Virus record (IMG/VR): IMGVR_UViG_3300012006_000037
Span: 1 to 21,361 of that record
Direction: 5' to 3' (one strand)
Length of the DNA stretch: 21,361 nt
Source of the DNA: a virus
Shown here: piece by piece, positions 4,465 through 20,305 of the stretch
How positions within the stretch are numbered: the stretch's first letter is position 1
Layout: each line of letters begins with the position of its first letter
Position numbers and translations under genes: made by a program
The notes under the pieces: generated by a model
The model's input: only the letters and a program-made list of their open reading frames with translations
What the model was told of the DNA's origin: nothing
The model's database searches: none

Positions 4465-4468
4465 GGAG
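4465..4468 (+). promoter_or_regulatory. Ribosome binding site favouring the GTG start at 4474
   Basis: GGAG lies 5 bases before the GTG at 4474. The in-frame ATG at 4450, inside the end of the polymerase gene, has no comparable site. I therefore place the start of the HExxH gene at 4474. Confidence 0.55.
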
Positions 4469-4473
4469 AACTC

Positions 4474-4884
4474 GTGGATAAGATAAAAATCGGTAAGACC
4501 GGCTACACAATAAAAACAGTTGAAGCGTTCTGGAACAAAGCGATAGTTGCTCAGATCGACTACAGCACCAAGACCTTAACCCTAGCCAGACGCGGTGGCA
4601 TATCGCACAAGCCGCGCTCAAAGACGGACATAGAACAGTCTTTCTGGCATGAGGCTGTGCATGGGATTTTGAAAGACATGCGCAACCCATTGGAGAGCAA
4701 CGAAGCGTTCGTAGATGGAATTGCCATCCGGCTAATGAAGCTTCTAAGACAGGTATACCCGAATGAAAGTAACTTGGTCACACAGCGCGTTAAAGGATTA
4801 CGAAAGCTGCGCACGGAAGTATTACGAAGTAACCGTCTTAAAGAACTACAAATTTCAAGAAACAGAACAAACAAGATACGGTAA
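4474..4884 (+). CDS. Small HExxH (zincin-like) protein with a tail overlapping the next gene
   Basis: With the GTG start behind GGAG the product has 136 residues; an ATG at 4450 would add eight. After a small beta-rich N-terminal half (YTIKTVEAFW...AQIDYSTKTLTL) comes QSFWHEAVHGILKDM. H59, E60 and H63 form HExxH, and EAFVDGIAIRLMKLL follows, supplying a likely third-ligand glutamate (E77). This resembles compact phage metallopeptidase-like proteins of the ImmA/IrrE kind, although no HTH is attached. The recognisable domain ends near residue 95. The last ~40 residues are very basic and lie wholly within the first 122 bases of the next gene in another frame. The tail may be a read-on extension created by loss of an earlier stop. 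Substrate and function are unknown; zinc binding is likely. Confidence 0.7.
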   Translation: MDKIKIGKTGYTIKTVEAFWNKAIVAQIDYSTKTLTLARRGGISHKPRSKTDIEQSFWHEAVHGILKDMRNPLESNEAFVDGIAIRLMKLLRQVYPNESNLVTQRVKGLRKLRTEVLRSNRLKELQISRNRTNKIR

Positions 4885-5419
4885 AGACTTACACAAAGCA
4901 GCAGAGCGTTACATCAAAGGTGGGCCGCTGGCAAAACAATTTAGTTTCATCCAGCCCACCCTTGACGCGCTGAAAGCCAAACGCGGCACCAAGCATACGG
5001 AACTCCAGCTTGCGTTGGACGTAGACTTGAAGCCGTGCAAGTGGTTTGATAAAGAGTTGGTGTGGGTGCGGGGTATCATCGACCTGTTGATTCTTGATGG
5101 CGACACCGCATGGGTGATTGACTACAAGACCGGCAGCAACAAGTATCCCGACAAGGATCAACTGGACTTGATGGCGTTGATTACGTTCGCGCACTACCCT
5201 GAAGTCAAGAAGGTAAACGCGGCGCTGCTGTTCGTTGTAAAAGAAAGCATGACGAAGCACAAGGTAGAAGTAGAGAACGCAGAAGGTATCTGGTGGGACT
5301 ACCGTGAGCGTGTTGCCAAGATTGAGGCAGCGCACACTAACAACGTATGGAACCCCAAGCAGTCGGGGCTATGCCCGTGGTGTCCTGTTAAAACGTGTGA
5401 GTTTCATCCTGAACACTAG
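4763..5419 (+). CDS. Cas4/RecB-like PD-(D/E)xK nuclease with iron-sulfur cysteines
   Basis: The 218-residue product opens with WSHSALKDYESCARKYYE, the usual start of RecB/Cas4-type nucleases. Motifs follow in order: KDLHKAAERY (H44), TELQLAL (E80), RGIIDLLI (D107), VIDYKTGS (D120, K122) and a conserved-position glutamine (DQLDLMAL). C16 near the start together with C204, C207 and C212 near the end (CPWCPVKTC) match the one-plus-three cysteine pattern of the 4Fe-4S cluster in Cas4 and AddB. It should be a single-strand or end-processing DNA nuclease in phage replication or recombination. The start lies 122 bases inside the preceding gene. I kept it because the SxSxLxxYExC motif begins at residue 6. 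Nuclease identity is strong; the cluster is inferred from cysteine positions. Confidence 0.88.
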   Translation: MKVTWSHSALKDYESCARKYYEVTVLKNYKFQETEQTRYGKDLHKAAERYIKGGPLAKQFSFIQPTLDALKAKRGTKHTELQLALDVDLKPCKWFDKELVWVRGIIDLLILDGDTAWVIDYKTGSNKYPDKDQLDLMALITFAHYPEVKKVNAALLFVVKESMTKHKVEVENAEGIWWDYRERVAKIEAAHTNNVWNPKQSGLCPWCPVKTCEFHPEH

Positions 5420-7308: not shown

Positions 7309-7713
7309 ATGACAACAGAAGATTTAGTTCCTATGGACAAGCTTGCGAAAATTTACCTTAAGATTCGCACGAAGGTTCAGCTACTCACGCAGGAATACGA
7401 AAAACAAAAGGCCGGTCTGGAAACGCAGAAGTCAGAGGTAGCCAATGCCATGCGTGACCAGATGAAAGCATTGGGTTCCAAGTCAGTTAAGACAGAGTAT
7501 GGCACGGTCATGCTTGGCGTAAAGACCCGTTACACCACGCAGGACTGGGACTCGTTCAAAGACTTTTGCATCAAGAACAATACGATTGATCTCCTTGAGC
7601 GGCGCATTGCTCAACGGAACATGGCGAAGTGGCTGGAGGAGAATCCCGAGGATATTCCACCGGGGTTGAACTCTGATTCTGAGTATGAAGTGACTGTTAG
7701 AAAACCTAGTTAA
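7309..7713 (+). CDS. Conserved phage replication-module protein, coiled coil
   Basis: This 134-residue protein has GAGGA about 7 bases before its ATG. Residues 12-60 form a charged helix or coiled coil (KIRTKVQLLTQEYEKQKAGL). A beta hairpin follows (SVKTEYGTVMLGVKTRYTT), then a helix pair and the ending PPGLNSDSEYEVTVRKPS. The order 'KS(V/M)KTEYGTV', 'WLEENPEDIPPG' and 'VTVRKP' is one I recall from phage proteins that repeatedly sit beside the candidate ssDNA-binding protein below. No enzymatic motif is visible. It is likely an accessory replication or recombination factor; the proposed link to the neighbour rests on gene order only. Confidence 0.7.
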   Translation: MTTEDLVPMDKLAKIYLKIRTKVQLLTQEYEKQKAGLETQKSEVANAMRDQMKALGSKSVKTEYGTVMLGVKTRYTTQDWDSFKDFCIKNNTIDLLERRIAQRNMAKWLEENPEDIPPGLNSDSEYEVTVRKPS

Positions 7714-8727: not shown

Positions 8728-9006
8728 ATGCCGTATAAAAGTTCGATTAGAAAAAAGATAGCGCTAGCGCCTACCAGTATCGGTAAGACGCTGGGCAGTC
8801 AAGCCGTGCGCACAGACTTTTCCGTGCTTCGCATCTCAAAGGCGACAGGCGCAACCCGCCAGACTATTTACAACTGGTTTTTTGGTGGCGTGGTGGCACC
8901 GTATTACCGCGATAAAGTTACCGAGATAATTGAAATCTTGAAAGATTCCCCCACCGCCGAACACGCATGGAGAACCGTATGCTCCCGCTTCCATCTGAGA
9001 ACATAA
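8728..9006 (+). CDS. Helix-turn-helix DNA-binding protein
   Basis: This 92-residue protein contains a clear HTH in DFSVLRISKATGATRQTIYN, followed by WFFGG (roughly residues 30-54). A turn at KATGAT precedes recognition helix RQTIYNWF, with the shape of Cro/CI or small phage regulators. Helices on both sides (residues 5-20, and TEIIEILKDS at 65-74) complete a compact domain. It is probably a transcription regulator of this module or a replication-origin binder. No convincing ribosome site precedes the ATG, and an 8-bp hairpin ends 6 bases upstream, so expression may be low or structure-controlled. The 3' end overlaps the next gene by 28 bases. Confidence 0.75.
   Translation: MPYKSSIRKKIALAPTSIGKTLGSQAVRTDFSVLRISKATGATRQTIYNWFFGGVVAPYYRDKVTEIIEILKDSPTAEHAWRTVCSRFHLRT
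8969..8972 (+). promoter_or_regulatory. Ribosome binding site favouring the ATG at 8979
   Basis: GGAG ends 6 bases before the ATG at 8979, and it overlaps an in-frame ATG at 8967 that has no site of its own. The start at 8979 is therefore preferred. Confidence 0.5.
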
Positions 9007-9185
9007 CCGACAAAGAGTTTTTAAAGTTTGCTTGCTACATGCTGAACTCCCAAGACTCGCTACCTAGAGACTGGCAACTGTCTATGGCGGTTCGTTTGGA
9101 GAAGCTTGTTAACCCAGACTCGGATACTGAAGTTGTTTTTAAATACGCGCCCGTTCAATTAGAACTTCCGTTCGTTAACTCGTAA
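8979..9185 (+). CDS. Small hypothetical protein before the primase
   Basis: This protein has 68 residues, starting within the end of the HTH gene behind GGAG. It is helical in the first two thirds (DKEFLKFACYMLNS, WQLSMAVRLEKLV) and ends in a strand and hydrophobic tail (LELPFVNS). There is one cysteine and no metal site. The family is not recognised. The 28-base overlap with the upstream gene, the ribosome site and the 21-base gap to the primase argue that it is real and cotranscribed. A role as a primase or helicase accessory is possible from position alone. Confidence 0.6.
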   Translation: MLPLPSENITDKEFLKFACYMLNSQDSLPRDWQLSMAVRLEKLVNPDSDTEVVFKYAPVQLELPFVNS

Positions 9186-12125: not shown

Positions 12126-12285
12126 GACCCCCGTGTGGGGTAGTTTCTTCGTGCCATCGCTGGACGTGTATGCAACGAAAGAGACAGGGCTGAAGGTAGC
12201 CCTGCATCTCCGCATCAAAGGTAAAGCAACCTTCGGTCTATACAACGGCAAGCACGGGGTGCTGTTTACGCGGCTTTCCGTATGA
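12088..12285 (+). CDS. Small conserved protein at the convergent junction
   Basis: This 65-residue basic protein begins at an ATG inside the end of the primase gene. It has PWNETPVWGSFFVPSLDV, a central helix and FGLYNGKHGVLFTRLSV. I recall small phage proteins with the same 'GxSFFVPxLD ... GxxxGKxGVxFxR' layout, which supports it as real despite its weak ribosome site. The function is unknown. Its final 20 bases overlap the 3' end of the giant gene on the other strand. Three candidate hairpins lie within it, so transcription ending here may truncate its mRNA. Confidence 0.55.
   Translation: MPKKIRIYYPWNETPVWGSFFVPSLDVYATKETGLKVALHLRIKGKATFGLYNGKHGVLFTRLSV
12127..12141 (+). terminator. Possible weak terminator hairpin after the primase
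   Basis: ACCCC and GGGGT form a 5-bp stem with a 5-base loop, followed by TAG-like bases and TTTCTTC. It lies one base past the primase stop but inside the next small gene. A competing pair (CTACCC at 12111-12116 with GGGTAG at 12138-12143) shares part of it. The evidence is marginal. Confidence 0.3.
12185..12204 (-). terminator. Candidate terminator for the minus-strand giant gene
   Basis: CAGGGCT and AGCCCTG form a perfect 7-bp stem with a 6-base loop. Read on the - strand it lies about 62 bases after the giant gene's stop and is followed by TCTCTTTC, a pyrimidine-rich tract. On the + strand no T-run follows. A terminator is expected between convergent operons, and this is the best candidate. 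Confidence 0.45.
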
Positions 12286-15200
12286 TGTCGCGGTATAGCT
12301 TAGCCGTGTCTATCTGTTCTTTACGTAGCTGGTCTATGCGTTTGCGCTTCTCACTAGGCGAAAGATCAGAAGCTTTAACTTCAGTTATGGCATCGGTTGA
12401 TTGTTTCATATCTTTTTTAAAGTCCCCGTAACTGGTGCCAACCAAAACCCGTTGCATATTAGTGTTGAGATAAGCTTCGGCTTCAGCAGGGTTACCATCC
12501 GCATACAGTTTGTTGTAGGTATTAACCGCCCGTTCGCCGTCTTGCATCAACTCATAGGTGCGGTTGATGATACCGCCAGCGTCGTTTGGCTGAAACGCGC
12601 TACTAAAGAACGCAACTTGGGAAGCCTTTTTTTCAGCTTGTTGCACTTTAGGACTGGCAATAAACGCATCAGCCAACGACACGGCAGACAACAGCGTTTG
12701 CGCACCAACGCCTTTTATAAACTGATCCACTTTAACTGGCGATACCCCCGGAATGCCCATGCTGCCAAGCACCTTCGCCAGTTCAGTTGTCGTATCTTTA
12801 TACCGTTGCGCGGGGTCAAGGGACTGCATACGAGCCGACTCAACATCTGCGCCGGTAAACAAGTCTTTACCAGTTATGCCTTCAACAACCGGAACAAGGA
12901 ACTGCGGTATGCCTTTGCTGGAACCGCCCGGAATTGAGTTAATACCCAACTGCACCAGCGCCTGAGCGATAGGCGCTACGTCGCCATCCCCAGCTACAGA
13001 GTTGTAAATGGCTTCCGGTATGGCTTTAGCCAGTAAACCAAATTCAAACGGAATTGGTATCTTAAGCGGTTCATCAAAACCCGGAACGCGCACAAACCAG
13101 TTATTAAGTTTTTGTTGCGCGGTGGCGTTCTTGTAGGCTTCGTCGTCTTCCATTGCCATCGCATACATAACCGTAAACGCCGCCATCATTATGGCGCGTT
13201 GTTTAAACTTCTCTTGAATTTTTAAACGTTCGTTGTAAGGCATGTTGCCCGTCATGGCTTTAACAAACACACTTAAGCCTTGTATCTGCGCGTTAAAAAA
13301 CGGATATAACGTATTGGCCCATTGCACCGAAGGGGATACCCCCCGCCGATTAAAGTCTGTAATTTCATTGGCGGCTACCCACGCCTCCATTTCGTTCAAA
13401 CCTTGCTTGATGTAGCTGTTGTAAGCGGATAGCCGAACGCCCACATCAGCCTCCATGCTCTTGGCTTCAGCATACGCAAGCAGTCCTGATATTGATTGCT
13501 TACCGCTCACAACGCTGCGCAAAACCGTAGACAACGCTTCTTTACTGCTACCGGCAAGAACTTGTCCACCTAACAGCCCTTGGTTTTCAAGCAGCGCGGC
13601 TTCGCGGCTAGTGCCGGTCAACGATTTATATATGTTTTTGAAAGGGTCTACTATAGGGATAAAGTTAGCGCCGCTTGTGCCCAACGCAGAAAACGAATCT
13701 TTGACAACCTGCCGAAGCGGATACATAGGACTTAGTATGACAAAACGGCGCAGTAGCTGGGCCGGAATACCCATAAGTTCCAGTGCTTTTGGCATTGTAG
13801 TTTTAACGCCTTCCAGCCCTTTGACCAATAGCGTCGGCGGGATACCTTCAAACATCGTATCGTTTGTGTCTTTTACGCGCACCGCAATATCTTCGCCGTC
13901 TTTTCTAAAGCGAATAACATTAGCGCCTTTATGCGCATCCGAAATTTTAAGGTCTTCTTTTTGTTCCCCGGTTTTTTTGTCTTTATATTTACGAGTTTCA
14001 AGCATGTTGAGCTTGCGCAGTGTATCCACAACACTACCCGTTGCAATGTTACGCAGCGCCATGTCTGTCAGCAGGTTTGTGTTCTGCACCGCGCTGGTAA
14101 AGATGTTACTGATCGCAGTGTCACCACCCACCAAACCGTGCAAATGCGGTTGGTCTGTTAAATTTCCAACAATAATCGGACTTGATTCACTGCCCAAAAT
14201 CAATTCAATTTCACCGCTAGGGTTTTCCCGGTAGAAAGGAATGTAGTCTTTGGTAGCGCGAAGAGCATCAGCTTTTTCTTTAGAAAGTGCCCCCGCTTGT
14301 TCGGCAAAATCAACCAGCCCTTTGTTGTAATCGTTGTATATGCCCCGCGCTTTATCAAATGCAGTTTTGACTTTGGGCATTGCCGCAATCTCGCGCTCAA
14401 ACTGTTGCAGCTTGGCTTCGGTAAGCACTTGATTGCCGTTTTTGTCTTTACCAAAATTTAATTTATCAACGCCAATTTTCTCGTTCTTAACCCGCTGCGC
14501 TGCCATATACAGGGTAAACATATCGCCAGCATCTTTTTCAGCAAGACCTGATTCACCTATAGCTTTAAACACCTTAACAAGATTAGCGCCGTCCTTGTTC
14601 TTGGTTTCAACCATCCAATATTTGTTAGCGCCCGTGCCTTTTTGTTTGTATTCAAGAGCGCCATTTGCCGCAACCAACCGCGTGAAGTTCATTATCTTGT
14701 CACGCGCACTCAAGTCATAACGCACTTGAGACGCTTCCAAGTCTGTTATTTTTTTGCCCGCAACGCCTTTTTTAAGCGCCGCCCAAACGGGCGCATAGCG
14801 GTCTACAAACTGGGTCATGCCAGCCAAGCCCATTACGTTGCCGCGTATCTCGTCAATCGTAGACCTGTCCTGCGCCACTACCGTGTGCATCGTAGCCCAC
14901 GATTCCGCGCTCATACCGGCAGGACGCGGCCCCTCTTTACCCCTAAAAGCAATCGTCCCGTCCGGGGATACGTAGGCACCCAACCGCCCCGCTGCCAAGT
15001 TGGTAGACGACTCACGGATCAGCGCTTGGATTTCTTTAGCGTCACGCTTCGCCATCTCCGACAAACCGGAGTTGCGGAAGTAACTACGCACCGCAGCAAC
15101 CATGTCCCGCACAAAGGTCTTAACCTTCTCGGTAAAGGTAGGCGCAACACGACGTCCCTCGGCAGCGTGGGCAACCATCTCGCGCACAAGTGCCATCCGC

Positions 15201-18200
15201 ACTTCCGGGTTCTGCAACGCATCCTTCGCTGCCAGCGCAGTCTCAACGTCAGGAAACACATTCAGCGCCGTAGCAACGTCTGCTACGTGCGCATCGCCCT
15301 GCTTGAACAGCCGGTCAACCAGCGCTTGCATACCGTCTTTACCAATGATGGTATCTACGCCGTAATGCCCAATCAACTCGTGGGCAAACGTTTCTTCAAG
15401 GTCAGCAAGGGTCTTGTGCGCCTCGCCTATGATGACAACGGTGCCGTCAGGCATCACAGCGCCTTTGGCAAAGTCCAAACCTTCCCGATACATAGCCGCT
15501 AATAATTCAGGCGGGGCATCCTTTAAGGTGGGCGCGTAGATGACCTCTACCCCTTTGGGCAGGGCTTTCTTAATCCGCGCTGCCACGTCCGCTGCGGCTT
15601 TGGCGTCAACACCACGGTCTTGTTCCGTGGCTTCGCGGAAGTCTGTCTTATTACGGTTTGCGGCATTGGCGTAGTCTAAGAAAATAGCGCGGTCTTCCCC
15701 TTCAATTCCATGTTGGTCTGCGTAAGCAACAGGATTTTTAAGGCGTTGTTTAAAACTTTGGGGTTTAATTTTTTCAACGTAAGGAACTGTGGGGCCAAAC
15801 TTGCCGCCCTCAGTACGCACCACCCTAGTGCTGGACGGCTGATTGGCTAGCTTCTGTTTATCTTTTGTCTCCTGACTTAGTTTGTTGTCATTGGTAGACT
15901 TACGCCCTTCAAAGAAAGTAGCAATACTCGCATCACGTTCTGCCGCCCGTTGCGACACAATGCTTATGCCCGGAGCTTCCCGCAAACCAACTCTGTAATC
16001 AAGTTTTTCAAGACTAGCTTCAATACTGGCTATTTGTTTTGGCAGACGTTCAATATCTTTAGCAGCGTTACTAATGTTACGTTTAAGTTTTTGAAGCTGT
16101 AAACGCTCCATCTTGAGCGCTTCTATAACGTCCGCAATAACACGCGGTTGCTCAGAAGTTATTTCTTTTTCGCCCTGCCGCAGAATAAGGTTGCGAATAT
16201 TAAGGTCTGTTTCTTGAGCCGCCCGTTCTCTCAACGCCGCTTCCTTTTGTTTCTGCAAGTAAACAATGTCAGAACCGGAAGCAAGAAGTTGTTTATCGGA
16301 TTTTTGCAAATCTTGCAAAGACTGAGTTTTAGCTTTTACTTTATTAATGCGACTGGTAAGTTCTGTTTGTGTTGTTTTTTCATGCCCACCAATACTAGCC
16401 AGTAGATTCCGCGCTTGTGCCAGCAGACCTGTTTTCTGTAACCGCTTACGGGCAAGCAAATTTACCGTGGCATCCCGTCTTTGTTCTTTTACGCTGTCAG
16501 GAGTGCTCTCACTACGCGCCGCCCTGTAGTCTTTAACAGCTTTTTGATACTTAGCTGCAAGTTCTTTATCTTCAGGTTTTGCTACAGACAATGCTTCTAA
16601 GCGTTTGGCTTCTTCGCGCAAACGTGTAATTTCCGCCGCGTCTGCAACCATAACATTCTGCGGCACCGCATTAGCGGCTTCTTGGGCTTTGCGCAACGCT
16701 AAACGAGCATTTAAAAGCTGCTTGGCAAGTTTTTTGCTGGCGGGATTAGCTTCAACACGTTCTTCTAACCGCGACACCATATCCTGCGCCCGTGATACCG
16801 CATCAATAGGGCGAGGCTCAGACACAAGCCCTGTTTCTTCAAGGCTTGTAGTAACTTGTTTTGTTAATGTTGGCCCTTCTTTAAGTTGACTTTCTTCTTC
16901 AACGCGTTTTTCAGCATTACGTTTTTGCAATTCAAGTTGTTCCGCCGTGGCTGGTTTATTCTGTTCTTTTACGCTATTGTCACGAGCGGTTTTGTAAGCT
17001 CTACGAGCTTTTCTAAACTCAACTGCAAGTTTTTTATTTTCAGGGTCTGCCTTATGCAGTGCAAACAACCGAACGGCTTCGTTGTGCAATTCTTTTATTT
17101 TGTTTTCTTTTTTTGCAATTTTTTCGGTTTGCAACTTTTTAGATTCGTCTGGCCTATTTGAAACTATCAGTAACCTAAGACGAGCTAGCCCCTCCCGCGA
17201 TATGCCTTTCTCTGCAACAGCTTGGGCTTTTCGTAAAATAGCGGTAGTGGCTTCGTTGTTTGTAAGCCCCTCAGATACAACTTTTGCAATGCGCTCTTTA
17301 ACGGTTTTAGTATCTTGCAGGGTCAAACGTGCTGAAGATACAAGAGCGCCAACTGCATCAGATACAATTTCAAAAGGAACTGTTTTAGTTTCGGCTACGG
17401 CTTTGTCTGCAACAATTTTGTCTGCAACAACTTTTTCTAGTTTAGGGGATTTGTTTTTAAAATCTTCCGACTTAACGTATTGACCGCCACCTTCTTTTTT
17501 GGGGAAGCTCAGTTCGTAGGTGCCCCTACCAACGTCGCGGCGCAGTTTGGTTAACTCGCTGCGCAACGTTTCGCCCATAGTCATGCCGCGCCGTATCTTA
17601 AAGCCCTTGTCTTCCAACAGGCTTTGGTCACGGCTAATTCCGTATTTGCGCTGCTGTTGGTTTTCTTCTTCAGAAGGCAACCGCACCCTAGCGCTTAACG
17701 GAGCGTTATCAATGAGCTTAGAAAACTGTTTGTCTAGCTTGCTTATGGTTGCGTCAATCTCGGCTTGGGTAAGCGCGGGTGATCCAAACTCATTACGCCG
17801 CGCCGTAGCTTCCCGCACAACTGCATCAAGCATGGACTTTTTAAGTTCCCGCGCTTGAGCTTGCAAACTTTCTACATCAACCTCTTCAAGCCTACCCTTA
17901 CGCAACGAATCAATAGCATTGGCAAGGTCAAACAAGTGCTGCTCACGTTCTGTAGCCGCCAGTTCAGCATCTTGCCGAGCTTGTAACGGTTTAACTGTTT
18001 TCTCTTGCTGCGGGGCTGCTTTAGCCGCATCAACGAGGCGTTGCAAAATGCGGGACTTGGCTTCCAGCGCCACTATCTTTTGCCCCGTTGGTGTCAACTG
18101 ACCTTTTACATAAATGTTGCGCGGTGCCATTGACTTTACGGACGCTGCTTCAGTCGTAAGCTTTATCTTAGCCGCGTTGGTTTCATCCAGAGCCGTCTTA

Positions 18201-20305
18201 ATTGCCGGTAATATCATCGCGGCTTGGCGGGGGTCGTTCATATCGTACTTCGGGCGCAGCCCTGTTTCGGTTTCCAAACCCGGAAGTTTCCTAGTCGGAA
18301 TACCTTCAGGCAGCGTCAGCCCAAGCAGGGACACCATATCAGGCGTAAGACCACCTTGTTGCGCCGCCGCGTCCATAGCCGACACGCGTTTACGGAGCAG
18401 CACTGAATCTTTACCACCCGCCTTTGAAAGTGCTAATGCCCGGAAAGGGCTTTTAAGTTGCTCTTCGGCGCGTTGCACTGCCGTCTCTTGCTCAAGCTCC
18501 TGCAACCGCGCAACCCGAACGCTCTCGGATTCAGCCCGTTGCGTAGCTTGTTGTGCTTCTTGTTTCTGCTCCGTATCCTGTGCAGCCATTTCTTGCTGCT
18601 GTGTGGAAAGTGTATCCGGCGTAAGTGTGGTGGGGGGCACGGGCGCAACATATTCATCTTGCATTTGCGCAGCCATAGCGTCTTGTGCCTCGGCTTGCTT
18701 TGGCAAGTTAAACAGGTCTGCTTGGGGGCCGGGGGTTACACCAGCCGCTTGTTGCATCTGTTGATCTTTTTGTGCTTGCAGCGCTTGTGTCTTTTGCATA
18801 AGCTCATCAGGGATAACCTGCTTCTTGCTCATGTAGCGCTGCGTTGCGGCTTGCGCGGCCTTTAACTCAGAATCAACATCTAAGACTACATTGTTAGCTT
18901 TAGCAGTTTTTATAAGCTCGCTTTGCGCCGCTTCAATCTTCTGCAGCTGTTGCAACGCCGCGTTATACGCAGGAACATTTTTTTGTTCTTGCGCCGCTTC
19001 CACTTCAGCGTTTAACCGGTCACCTTCAGCTTTTGTTTTACGATACTCATCTTGCAGAGACACTTCAGGCGTCTGGGTTTCAATGCCGGTAGGCAGCGCT
19101 TGCCCTTGCAGCGGCGTATACGCGCCACCAGTTTCACCAAAGATATCGGTCTGCGTCCCGCCATAAGCAGGTAACCCCTCCGTCTTTTTAGTCCCCGGTT
19201 GCGCAGGAGCCATTCCGGGCAACGCTTGAAATGCTTGTTGTTGCTGTTGCAGTGCTGCTTGCTGCTGTTGCAGTGCTGCTTGCTGCAACGCTTCTTTATC
19301 AGCCCTGCCTTGTTGAATTTCGCCAAGCCGATCACGCGCTGCGCTGCGGCGACTAGCACCGCCCACACCACCAAACACGGCGGCGGGGCCAGCAACACCC
19401 ACCGCAGTGGCGACATACTCCTGTTGTGCATCTTTATCAAACAAAGGCAATCCGGCTTGCCAACGTTCAAGCACTGCTTGCGCGGTTTCTGTTGGGATTT
19501 CTACAACTTCACCAGTTACAACCCCGCGCCCAACTGTTCCGGCAAGGCTACGCTTTGAGGCTTCAACCAGTGCCAGTTCTGCTTTTTCGGCACCCAGCTT
19601 TGGTAACGCGCTGGCAAAAAGTTTACCAACACCCAAGCGGCCTAAAACAAAAGCAGTCTCAGCAACATCTAGCGCGGCTTGCGGTAGCGCGGCAGTGGCG
19701 GCTTTACCATAATCAAGAGGTTTATTTTCTTTAGCTTTTTCTTGTTCCTCCGCTTGGCGTTCAACGTTTTGCCCAACAAACGCCGGATAGGACGCTGCCA
19801 ACGCACCCAACGCACCACCCGCAAGGGTGGCTCCGGGAAGCGGAACCATAGCGCCAATGCCAGCGCCTACACGTGCCCCACCCATGACCGCGCCCATTTG
19901 GGGTAGGGACTCGCCCAACTGCCCACGCCACATATTCAGTAGAGAGCTTACGCCGCCCTGTTCTTCTGGTTTCTCACCGCCAAACAAACCGTATTTTTCT
20001 TGAGCTTTTTGAACATCTTCCCAGCTTTTTGATTTTGCAGTTTCAGAACGTTTAGCTTGGGAGCGTTCAATACCTTTCTTAACCGCTTCATCAGAGAGGC
20101 TGAACAGCGGCGCTGCTGCGGTTGAGTAGGCAGACTTAAGCGATTCGTAGCCTGACTTTATGCTAGGTATAAGCCCTTCTTCGGCCTTTGCCGTGTCAGC
20201 ATACATCTTAGGAAACATCTCTTTGGCACGGGCATACGCATCGGCGTAAGAAACGCCTTCCGGCACCTTTTCGTATTCTCCATTAGGGAGGCGAAGATAG
20301 GGCAT
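12266..20305 (-). CDS. Giant polyvalent virion/ejection protein with zincin motif and LPD38-like domain
   Basis: This 2679-residue protein has AAGGA 6 bases before its ATG. Regions in order: a conserved phage N-terminus (MPYLRLPNGEYEKVPEGVSY); Gly/Ala-rich, membrane-active segments at ~136-176, ~206-230 and ~299-318; Gln/Ala low complexity at 336-361; long charged coiled coils at ~420-1450 with a ~40-residue internal repeat; a zincin motif AHELIGHYGV (H1642, E1643, H1647) after a 'GTVVIIGEAH' strand; a large helical region at 1790-2190; and an LPD38-like part at ~2190-2350 (LSPMYPLRQVVKDSF, TDFNRRGVSP, YPFFNAQIQGL). A Lys/Arg-rich helix ends it. Proteins of this architecture are known as polyvalent proteins, are packaged in capsids and enter the cell with the DNA. 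The protease motif may cut host or phage proteins, or mature the polypeptide. Family membership is good; the substrate is unknown. The 3' end overlaps the opposite-strand gene by 20 bases. Confidence 0.85.
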   Translation of the reverse strand: MPYLRLPNGEYEKVPEGVSYADAYARAKEMFPKMYADTAKAEEGLIPSIKSGYESLKSAYSTAAAPLFSLSDEAVKKGIERSQAKRSETAKSKSWEDVQKAQEKYGLFGGEKPEEQGGVSSLLNMWRGQLGESLPQMGAVMGGARVGAGIGAMVPLPGATLAGGALGALAASYPAFVGQNVERQAEEQEKAKENKPLDYGKAATAALPQAALDVAETAFVLGRLGVGKLFASALPKLGAEKAELALVEASKRSLAGTVGRGVVTGEVVEIPTETAQAVLERWQAGLPLFDKDAQQEYVATAVGVAGPAAVFGGVGGASRRSAARDRLGEIQQGRADKEALQQAALQQQQAALQQQQQAFQALPGMAPAQPGTKKTEGLPAYGGTQTDIFGETGGAYTPLQGQALPTGIETQTPEVSLQDEYRKTKAEGDRLNAEVEAAQEQKNVPAYNAALQQLQKIEAAQSELIKTAKANNVVLDVDSELKAAQAATQRYMSKKQVIPDELMQKTQALQAQKDQQMQQAAGVTPGPQADLFNLPKQAEAQDAMAAQMQDEYVAPVPPTTLTPDTLSTQQQEMAAQDTEQKQEAQQATQRAESESVRVARLQELEQETAVQRAEEQLKSPFRALALSKAGGKDSVLLRKRVSAMDAAAQQGGLTPDMVSLLGLTLPEGIPTRKLPGLETETGLRPKYDMNDPRQAAMILPAIKTALDETNAAKIKLTTEAASVKSMAPRNIYVKGQLTPTGQKIVALEAKSRILQRLVDAAKAAPQQEKTVKPLQARQDAELAATEREQHLFDLANAIDSLRKGRLEEVDVESLQAQARELKKSMLDAVVREATARRNEFGSPALTQAEIDATISKLDKQFSKLIDNAPLSARVRLPSEEENQQQRKYGISRDQSLLEDKGFKIRRGMTMGETLRSELTKLRRDVGRGTYELSFPKKEGGGQYVKSEDFKNKSPKLEKVVADKIVADKAVAETKTVPFEIVSDAVGALVSSARLTLQDTKTVKERIAKVVSEGLTNNEATTAILRKAQAVAEKGISREGLARLRLLIVSNRPDESKKLQTEKIAKKENKIKELHNEAVRLFALHKADPENKKLAVEFRKARRAYKTARDNSVKEQNKPATAEQLELQKRNAEKRVEEESQLKEGPTLTKQVTTSLEETGLVSEPRPIDAVSRAQDMVSRLEERVEANPASKKLAKQLLNARLALRKAQEAANAVPQNVMVADAAEITRLREEAKRLEALSVAKPEDKELAAKYQKAVKDYRAARSESTPDSVKEQRRDATVNLLARKRLQKTGLLAQARNLLASIGGHEKTTQTELTSRINKVKAKTQSLQDLQKSDKQLLASGSDIVYLQKQKEAALRERAAQETDLNIRNLILRQGEKEITSEQPRVIADVIEALKMERLQLQKLKRNISNAAKDIERLPKQIASIEASLEKLDYRVGLREAPGISIVSQRAAERDASIATFFEGRKSTNDNKLSQETKDKQKLANQPSSTRVVRTEGGKFGPTVPYVEKIKPQSFKQRLKNPVAYADQHGIEGEDRAIFLDYANAANRNKTDFREATEQDRGVDAKAAADVAARIKKALPKGVEVIYAPTLKDAPPELLAAMYREGLDFAKGAVMPDGTVVIIGEAHKTLADLEETFAHELIGHYGVDTIIGKDGMQALVDRLFKQGDAHVADVATALNVFPDVETALAAKDALQNPEVRMALVREMVAHAAEGRRVAPTFTEKVKTFVRDMVAAVRSYFRNSGLSEMAKRDAKEIQALIRESSTNLAAGRLGAYVSPDGTIAFRGKEGPRPAGMSAESWATMHTVVAQDRSTIDEIRGNVMGLAGMTQFVDRYAPVWAALKKGVAGKKITDLEASQVRYDLSARDKIMNFTRLVAANGALEYKQKGTGANKYWMVETKNKDGANLVKVFKAIGESGLAEKDAGDMFTLYMAAQRVKNEKIGVDKLNFGKDKNGNQVLTEAKLQQFEREIAAMPKVKTAFDKARGIYNDYNKGLVDFAEQAGALSKEKADALRATKDYIPFYRENPSGEIELILGSESSPIIVGNLTDQPHLHGLVGGDTAISNIFTSAVQNTNLLTDMALRNIATGSVVDTLRKLNMLETRKYKDKKTGEQKEDLKISDAHKGANVIRFRKDGEDIAVRVKDTNDTMFEGIPPTLLVKGLEGVKTTMPKALELMGIPAQLLRRFVILSPMYPLRQVVKDSFSALGTSGANFIPIVDPFKNIYKSLTGTSREAALLENQGLLGGQVLAGSSKEALSTVLRSVVSGKQSISGLLAYAEAKSMEADVGVRLSAYNSYIKQGLNEMEAWVAANEITDFNRRGVSPSVQWANTLYPFFNAQIQGLSVFVKAMTGNMPYNERLKIQEKFKQRAIMMAAFTVMYAMAMEDDEAYKNATAQQKLNNWFVRVPGFDEPLKIPIPFEFGLLAKAIPEAIYNSVAGDGDVAPIAQALVQLGINSIPGGSSKGIPQFLVPVVEGITGKDLFTGADVESARMQSLDPAQRYKDTTTELAKVLGSMGIPGVSPVKVDQFIKGVGAQTLLSAVSLADAFIASPKVQQAEKKASQVAFFSSAFQPNDAGGIINRTYELMQDGERAVNTYNKLYADGNPAEAEAYLNTNMQRVLVGTSYGDFKKDMKQSTDAITEVKASDLSPSEKRKRIDQLRKEQIDTAKLYRDIIRKAA
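16484..17080 (-). repeat. Diverged internal repeat (three copies) in the giant protein's coiled coil
   Basis: Three helical-hairpin units align by eye at residues ~1076-1115, ~1178-1211 and ~1234-1274. The shared pattern is a helix with 'RL..L', then A(D/N/K)P..K.LA, then a helix with 'A...Y..AR' or similar, and in copies one and three an ending in SVKEQ. Examples are HKADPENKKLA, EANPASKKLA and VAKPEDKELA. The copies lie at about 16961-17080, 16673-16774 and 16484-16606. They look like old duplications inside the rod region. Confidence 0.6.
19246..19286 (-). repeat. Tandem 21-base repeat encoding a Gln/Ala stretch
   Basis: Two adjacent copies of a 21-base unit (GTTGCAGTGCTGCTTGCTGC plus one base) differ only at the last base. 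They encode repeated AALQQQQ in the giant protein at about residues 341-354. Such a repeat can gain or lose copies by slippage without breaking the frame. Confidence 0.75.

Follow-up and report, generated by a model that had tools for sequence, protein, structure and literature searches.

Overlapping genes mostly come to light in their finished state; at the locus described here, an earlier state is likely still visible in related phages. The locus lies in the window (the whole stretch of viral DNA that was analysed, 21,361 nucleotides), where the 3′ end of a gene for a small HExxH protein runs out of frame over the start of a nuclease gene. It offers a chance to examine whether selection can retain a new stretch of protein for an overall property such as charge when the other frame does not change. 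The answer proposed here, to which we give a probability of about 0.55, is that an indel-driven change of phase would have created a tail that was then inherited, kept open and basic through the synonymous codons of the nuclease, and used as a nucleic-acid tether. The overlap itself, its spread among relatives and the bias in its codon choice are direct observations.

The overlap and its two genes

The HExxH gene of the window sits between a DNA polymerase A gene (upstream) and the nuclease gene, with a helicase gene further downstream; the features of the locus are collected in Table 1. The nuclease frame is offset by 1 relative to the HExxH frame (phase 1). A preliminary description of this DNA had reported the out-of-frame overlap, which is confirmed and measures exactly 122 nt in the five closest relatives as well (5/5), all of them from other metagenomes; in each of the five, the HExxH gene starts with ATG at the position where the window has GTG. 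The low local GC content noted at the same time also holds (43% at 4680-4919, where parts of the polymerase gene reach 60-65%). The accompanying statement that every other overlap on the + strand measures 38 bases or fewer has to be amended, the next longest among ORFs taken as genes being 40 nt (8967-9006). This second longest same-strand overlap joins two small + strand ORFs at 8728-9185. The idea that an error of sequencing or assembly produced the overlap has a probability close to nil and is ruled out by the 122 nt shared with five further contigs and by overlaps of 80-182 nt in twelve more. Within the replication module, the gene at 7309-7713 has a sole PHROG match, labelled minor head protein, and this label may be wrong.

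Table 1. Features of the HExxH/nuclease locus, in window positions
Feature	Position	Strand	Basis
Shine-Dalgarno-like GGAGA of the HExxH gene	4465..4469	+	sequence
HExxH gene (SprT/Wss1/IrrE-like zincin) of 136 aa, from GTG to TAA	4474..4884	+	
Folded core, about residues 1-96, equal to the full length of tail-less homologues	4474..4761	+	
HEAVH motif, residues 59-63	4648..4662	+	
CAGG, likely Shine-Dalgarno site of the nuclease, within the HExxH frame	4750..4753	+	sequence; duplex energies
122-nt overlap; tail first positions are nuclease third positions	4763..4884	+	
PD-(D/E)XK (Cas4/RecB-like) nuclease gene, 218 aa, ATG at 4763	4763..5419	+	
Overprinted tail, residues 98-136, mostly of low confidence in the model	4765..4881	+	

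Residues H59, E60 and H63 are invariant in the 35 aligned homologues, all of which match PHROG 1233 (function unknown). The end of the folded domain had been placed near residue 95, with which both AlphaFold2 confidence and the lengths of the tail-less homologues in the alignment (90-106 aa) agree: 96 residues reach a pLDDT of at least 70, nearly all of them among the first 100, and residues 106-136 stay below 50. From profile matches and from the predicted model, the core resembles a SprT/Wss1/IrrE-like zincin. At E ≤0.05, 17 of the 35 homologues, but not the window protein, match the SprT-like profile (PF10263), the lowest value being 2.6e-4; in BFVD, the top match (E 2.8e-7) is to a phage protein that bears the name SprT-like, and the best Foldseek match in the PDB is Wss1 (E 0.022, with no PDB match at E ≤0.001). 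Structural comparison by VIA-align gave middling Z values of 6.8 for IrrE/PprI, 6.6 for Wss1 and 4.7 for 6mdx; entries 6mdw and 6mdx are presumably SPRTN, the listed title stating only protease-dependent DPC repair. By sequence, the window protein matched no phage record at E 1e-3, a PDB search returned nothing useful and a search of genome contigs gave no relative; one tail-less homologue (L101) matched 10 phage records, two of them annotated as peptidase. A sequence that looks zinc-protease-type, AHELIGHYG, occurs in the translation of the minus-strand ORF at 12266-20305, which, at 2679 aa, is very long for a 21-kb contig; beside it, at the contig end, lies a minus-strand ORF with Ala/Pro repeats.

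The nuclease matches the PF12705 profile (PD-(D/E)XK nuclease) at 66.4 bits, against a cut-off of 22. Beyond the core of the HExxH protein, the tail of the window comprises 39 aa, with 12 K/R and 3 D/E, hence a net charge of +9.

Related loci and the change of phase

Relatives were gathered by one IMG/VR scan with the window protein and by three profile scans, which supplied the best 80 of 163, the best 80 of 81 and the best 80 of 167 relatives. With duplicate sequences removed and a copy of the window (L007) dropped, 125 distinct loci with both genes were kept; the nuclease start of each was set at the start codon nearest to the first position of the profile. Among these listed matches, long overlaps (80-182 nt) were found in 17 distinct sequences (18 contigs including the window), a proportion that is no prevalence figure since the profiles were built from tail-bearing proteins and the best 80 taken per scan. 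Their lengths are 80 nt (n = 1), 122 nt (n = 6), 143 nt (n = 2), 173 nt (n = 3) and 182 nt (n = 5), and the tails measure 25-59 aa, with five different stop positions; in L096, a stop cuts the tail to 25 aa. In the other 108 listed loci, the HExxH gene ends between 286 nt before and 8 nt past the nuclease start, with overlaps of 1 nt (n = 29), 4 nt (n = 52) or 8 nt (n = 8), or with no overlap, the genes abutting or lying up to 286 nt apart (n = 19). The preliminary description had taken homologues ending without exception near residue 95 as the mark of an accidental tail; early ends are common among the 125 listed loci, but the window's nearest homologues have the tail. The gene pair can also separate, with 33-297 nt between the HExxH stop and the nuclease (profile-based starts) in L078, L083, L084, L087, L098-L100, L135, L137, L138, L141-L144 and L146-L150.

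The preliminary description had offered two origins for the tail. A simple lost stop is rejected since the frame differs too: phase 2 is found in each of the 81 loci that overlap by 1 or 4 nt, and phase 1 in all 17 with a long overlap. A newly born coding region with a function of its own is favoured by codon choice, the function itself being putative. Once in phase 1, the HExxH frame reads on into the nuclease gene because the nuclease ATG supplies no stop in that phase. Eight other phase 1 loci end after only 8 nt of overlap (L181, L186, L187, L190, L196, L198, L210 and one more); seven of them are placed in the nuclease tree, elsewhere than the long clade, and they form a natural contrast to the long tails.

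At the junction, tail-less homologues frequently have a SARF-type end, on DNA such as ...GCGAGGTTCTA, and in many of them this DNA also holds a Shine-Dalgarno-like AGG for the nuclease. The tailed clade has ...QVHP or similar at this place (CAGG...). With junctions read by eye, the distance to the nuclease ATG in tailed and tail-less loci is one base apart in one comparison and more in others.

The nuclease tree comprises 108 rows, proteins <150 aa and duplicate non-overlap proteins having been removed. All 17 long loci fall within one starred set of 19 rows (100/97), which also includes the short-overlap rows L131 and L145, their position inside it being weakly supported (82/46). On this tree, the overlap label needs two changes, of which the starred branches force one, and a single change is found in 16% of bootstrap trees; the long overlap may have a single origin. 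The nuclease is present and aligned in both long and short loci, so that the new frame lies over an older conserved gene, and from the distribution of short and long overlaps we infer that the tail is a derived extension that arose through a frame change.

Codon choice within the overlap

Synonymous changes in the nuclease alter the tail because the third codon position of the nuclease is the first of the tail. Codon tests used 102 of the 108 non-overlap loci (nuclease pieces <450 nt were dropped), and 37 representatives of these 102 entered the lineage-level permutation and odds-ratio tests. In non-overlap relatives, the first 122 nt of the tail frame hold a mean of 2.0 stops, and the frame is open for at least 119 nt in 8 of 102; an open frame by chance is uncommon but not rare. 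At stop-prone pyrimidine sites, C and T stand at 69:0 within the overlap (pooled, 17 genomes), compared with 282:197 outside it and 515:197 at the corresponding positions of non-overlap relatives, while control sites inside the long overlaps give 70:47. Avoidance of TG false starts could explain part of this C-over-T bias before G.

Charge is biased as well. Where the nuclease-synonymous choice decides between K and E, A is used at 76% of sites inside the overlap (lineage-weighted) versus 34-53% in three comparison sets, and where it decides between N and D, at 88% (lineage-weighted) versus 32-48%. I-vs-V sites are not raised (19% A inside, 18% outside), and T-vs-A sites give 48% inside, 25% outside in the same clade and 60% at the corresponding place in relatives without the long overlap. 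The pattern does not follow charge throughout: S-vs-G sites, which carry none, are raised too (83% A versus 42-56%), and the charge-bearing R-vs-G sites are not (55% versus 42-69%). At sites deciding between R and C/W, C reaches 97% inside; the corresponding positions of non-overlap relatives give 77%, and sites outside 45-49%. Over six lineage representatives, acid-deciding sites compared with T/A and I/V sites give a Mantel-Haenszel odds ratio of 7.1 (z 4.95, p 4e-7), or of 5.95 (p 3e-4) once codons shared with an earlier lineage are removed; the same ratio is 0.64 in the 37 non-overlap representatives.

A charge null drawn from the usage of later codons overstates the effect because 5′ ends are A-rich, and it was replaced by permutations of synonymous codons within each overlap, which preserve the nuclease protein and its codon usage. 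Tail charge exceeds this null with Z 3.9 (six lineages, open frames only), or 4.3 with stops allowed, and with Z 2.8 when shared codons are held fixed (five lineages, L164 left out), the last of the five not lying above the null. Among the controls, the other frame shows a slight rise (Z 1.5, p 0.07), three later regions give Z 0.98, -0.25 and -1.35, and the 37 non-overlap representatives a mean z of -0.07. Counted directly, K+R amounts to at least 10 in 38 codons in 16 of the 17 long loci (L164 read past its stop) versus 2 of the 102 others.

This signal belongs to the clade and is weak in the window's own lineage, which alone gives an odds ratio of 1.55 (p 0.56) and a permutation z of 0.6-0.8, neither significant, and is the weakest of the lineages. 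In L006 (locus L165, nuclease codons 63 and later), unlike other lineages, A is strongly preferred ahead of A-starting codons outside the overlap too (odds ratio 11.5). Over six lineages, the ratio outside the overlap is 2.2 (p 0.002), falling to 1.5 (p 0.12) without L006; inside, it is 5.7 without L006 and 3.9 (p 0.003) without L006 and L021. Synonymous change in the overlap falls to 0.65-fold in the clade (p 0.003) and to 0.86-fold in non-overlap relatives (p 0.10), with a non-significant overlap-by-clade interaction in matched columns (p 0.20). Pairwise synonymous identity is only modestly in excess, and scoring the synonymous variants by BLOSUM in the frame of the tail gives nothing distinctive (long loci p 0.10; non-overlap loci p 0.01). 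There is little conserved sequence in the tails, and their length varies, so that any selection would be for charge and not for sequence. The results support selection for an open frame and, less clearly, for charge, and not for a motif.

The main rival is neutral read-through, according to which the tail ends at the first stop met, its charge and length are irrelevant and no selection is needed. It is in line with Fonseca, Harris and Posada 2013 (PMC3887535), who attribute phase 1 unidirectional overlaps to 3′ extension of the upstream gene and propose that long ones can form without invoking selection. The scatter of tail lengths over five stop positions, the non-significant interaction on synonymous rate and the open frame in eight non-overlap relatives fit it. 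What it leaves unexplained is the codon bias of six lineages towards open and non-acidic tails, which is absent from non-overlap relatives, and on that account we regard it as less likely. Alternatively, the bias could serve the nuclease start after the loss of stop-start coupling, by providing an A-rich and weakly structured mRNA or by removing false Shine-Dalgarno sites and starts. The overlap is indeed A-rich and lower in GC, S-vs-G sites have more A, as have T-vs-A sites when compared with the remainder of the gene, and the Shine-Dalgarno-like site of the nuclease is moderate in the long group (mean duplex energy -4.95 kcal/mol, compared with -6.15 in the 1-nt group and -1.11 in the 4-nt group). 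However, A-richness would be expected to add A at I-vs-V sites too, and avoidance of Shine-Dalgarno sites to act most strongly at R-vs-G sites (GGA/GGG), neither of which is observed; the charge excess persists in permutations that preserve codon usage, and the six long representatives have unremarkable folding energies around the nuclease start. These sites and permutations lead us to reject A-richness or Shine-Dalgarno avoidance as the sole cause, and a bias serving the nuclease start is improbable.

Proposed history and comparison with known systems

Under the preferred reading, that of a tail acquired by a phase change and selected for openness and charge, the ancestor would have carried a SprT/Wss1/IrrE-like HExxH gene of ~100 aa, with its stop codon directly at the start of the nuclease. 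The gene would have entered phase 1 through a small indel at the 3′ end, translation would then have continued into the nuclease gene to produce a tail, and this tail, 25-59 aa in the members seen, would have been inherited across the clade while selection on the synonymous codons of the nuclease kept it open and basic. In vivo, the tail may be unstructured and tether the protein to DNA or RNA in the replication module, as the analogy with the basic region of SPRTN suggests; an unstructured nucleic-acid-binding segment is its most likely role. That a disordered basic tether, born out of frame in the nuclease gene and held for its net charge, makes a SprT/Wss1-like protease DNA-bound is a more tentative proposal, with the odds somewhat against it. 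Whether a tail is kept for its charge is testable with one short recombinant protein. The related phages include phase 1 loci with short overlaps, placed elsewhere in the tree, as well as a clade past the change whose tails come in five lengths.

No paper on the HExxH/nuclease overlap was found in a search of a library of open papers. A possible functional parallel is with SPRTN, in which, according to PMC9240642, a short basic region that follows the protease domain on its C-terminal side binds DNA and its mutation impairs repair. The window protein shares an HExxH zincin-like core with the DNA-protein crosslink proteases SPRTN and Wss1; unlike them, it is far shorter, its structural match reaches only Z 4.5-6.6, and its DNA binding and proteolysis are putative. 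Its PHROG 1233 match covers residues 1-105, with most of the tail outside. As in the overlaps treated in PMC3887535, the upstream gene is extended into the downstream one, and phase 1 overlaps have to be long; unlike in the model given there, the short state is visible in relatives, and the choice of codons suggests selection for the charge of the tail. Finally, as in overprinted viral proteins (PMC8227390), a new coding frame lies over an older gene, but here it forms the C-terminal tail of an enzyme-like protein, not a separate protein.
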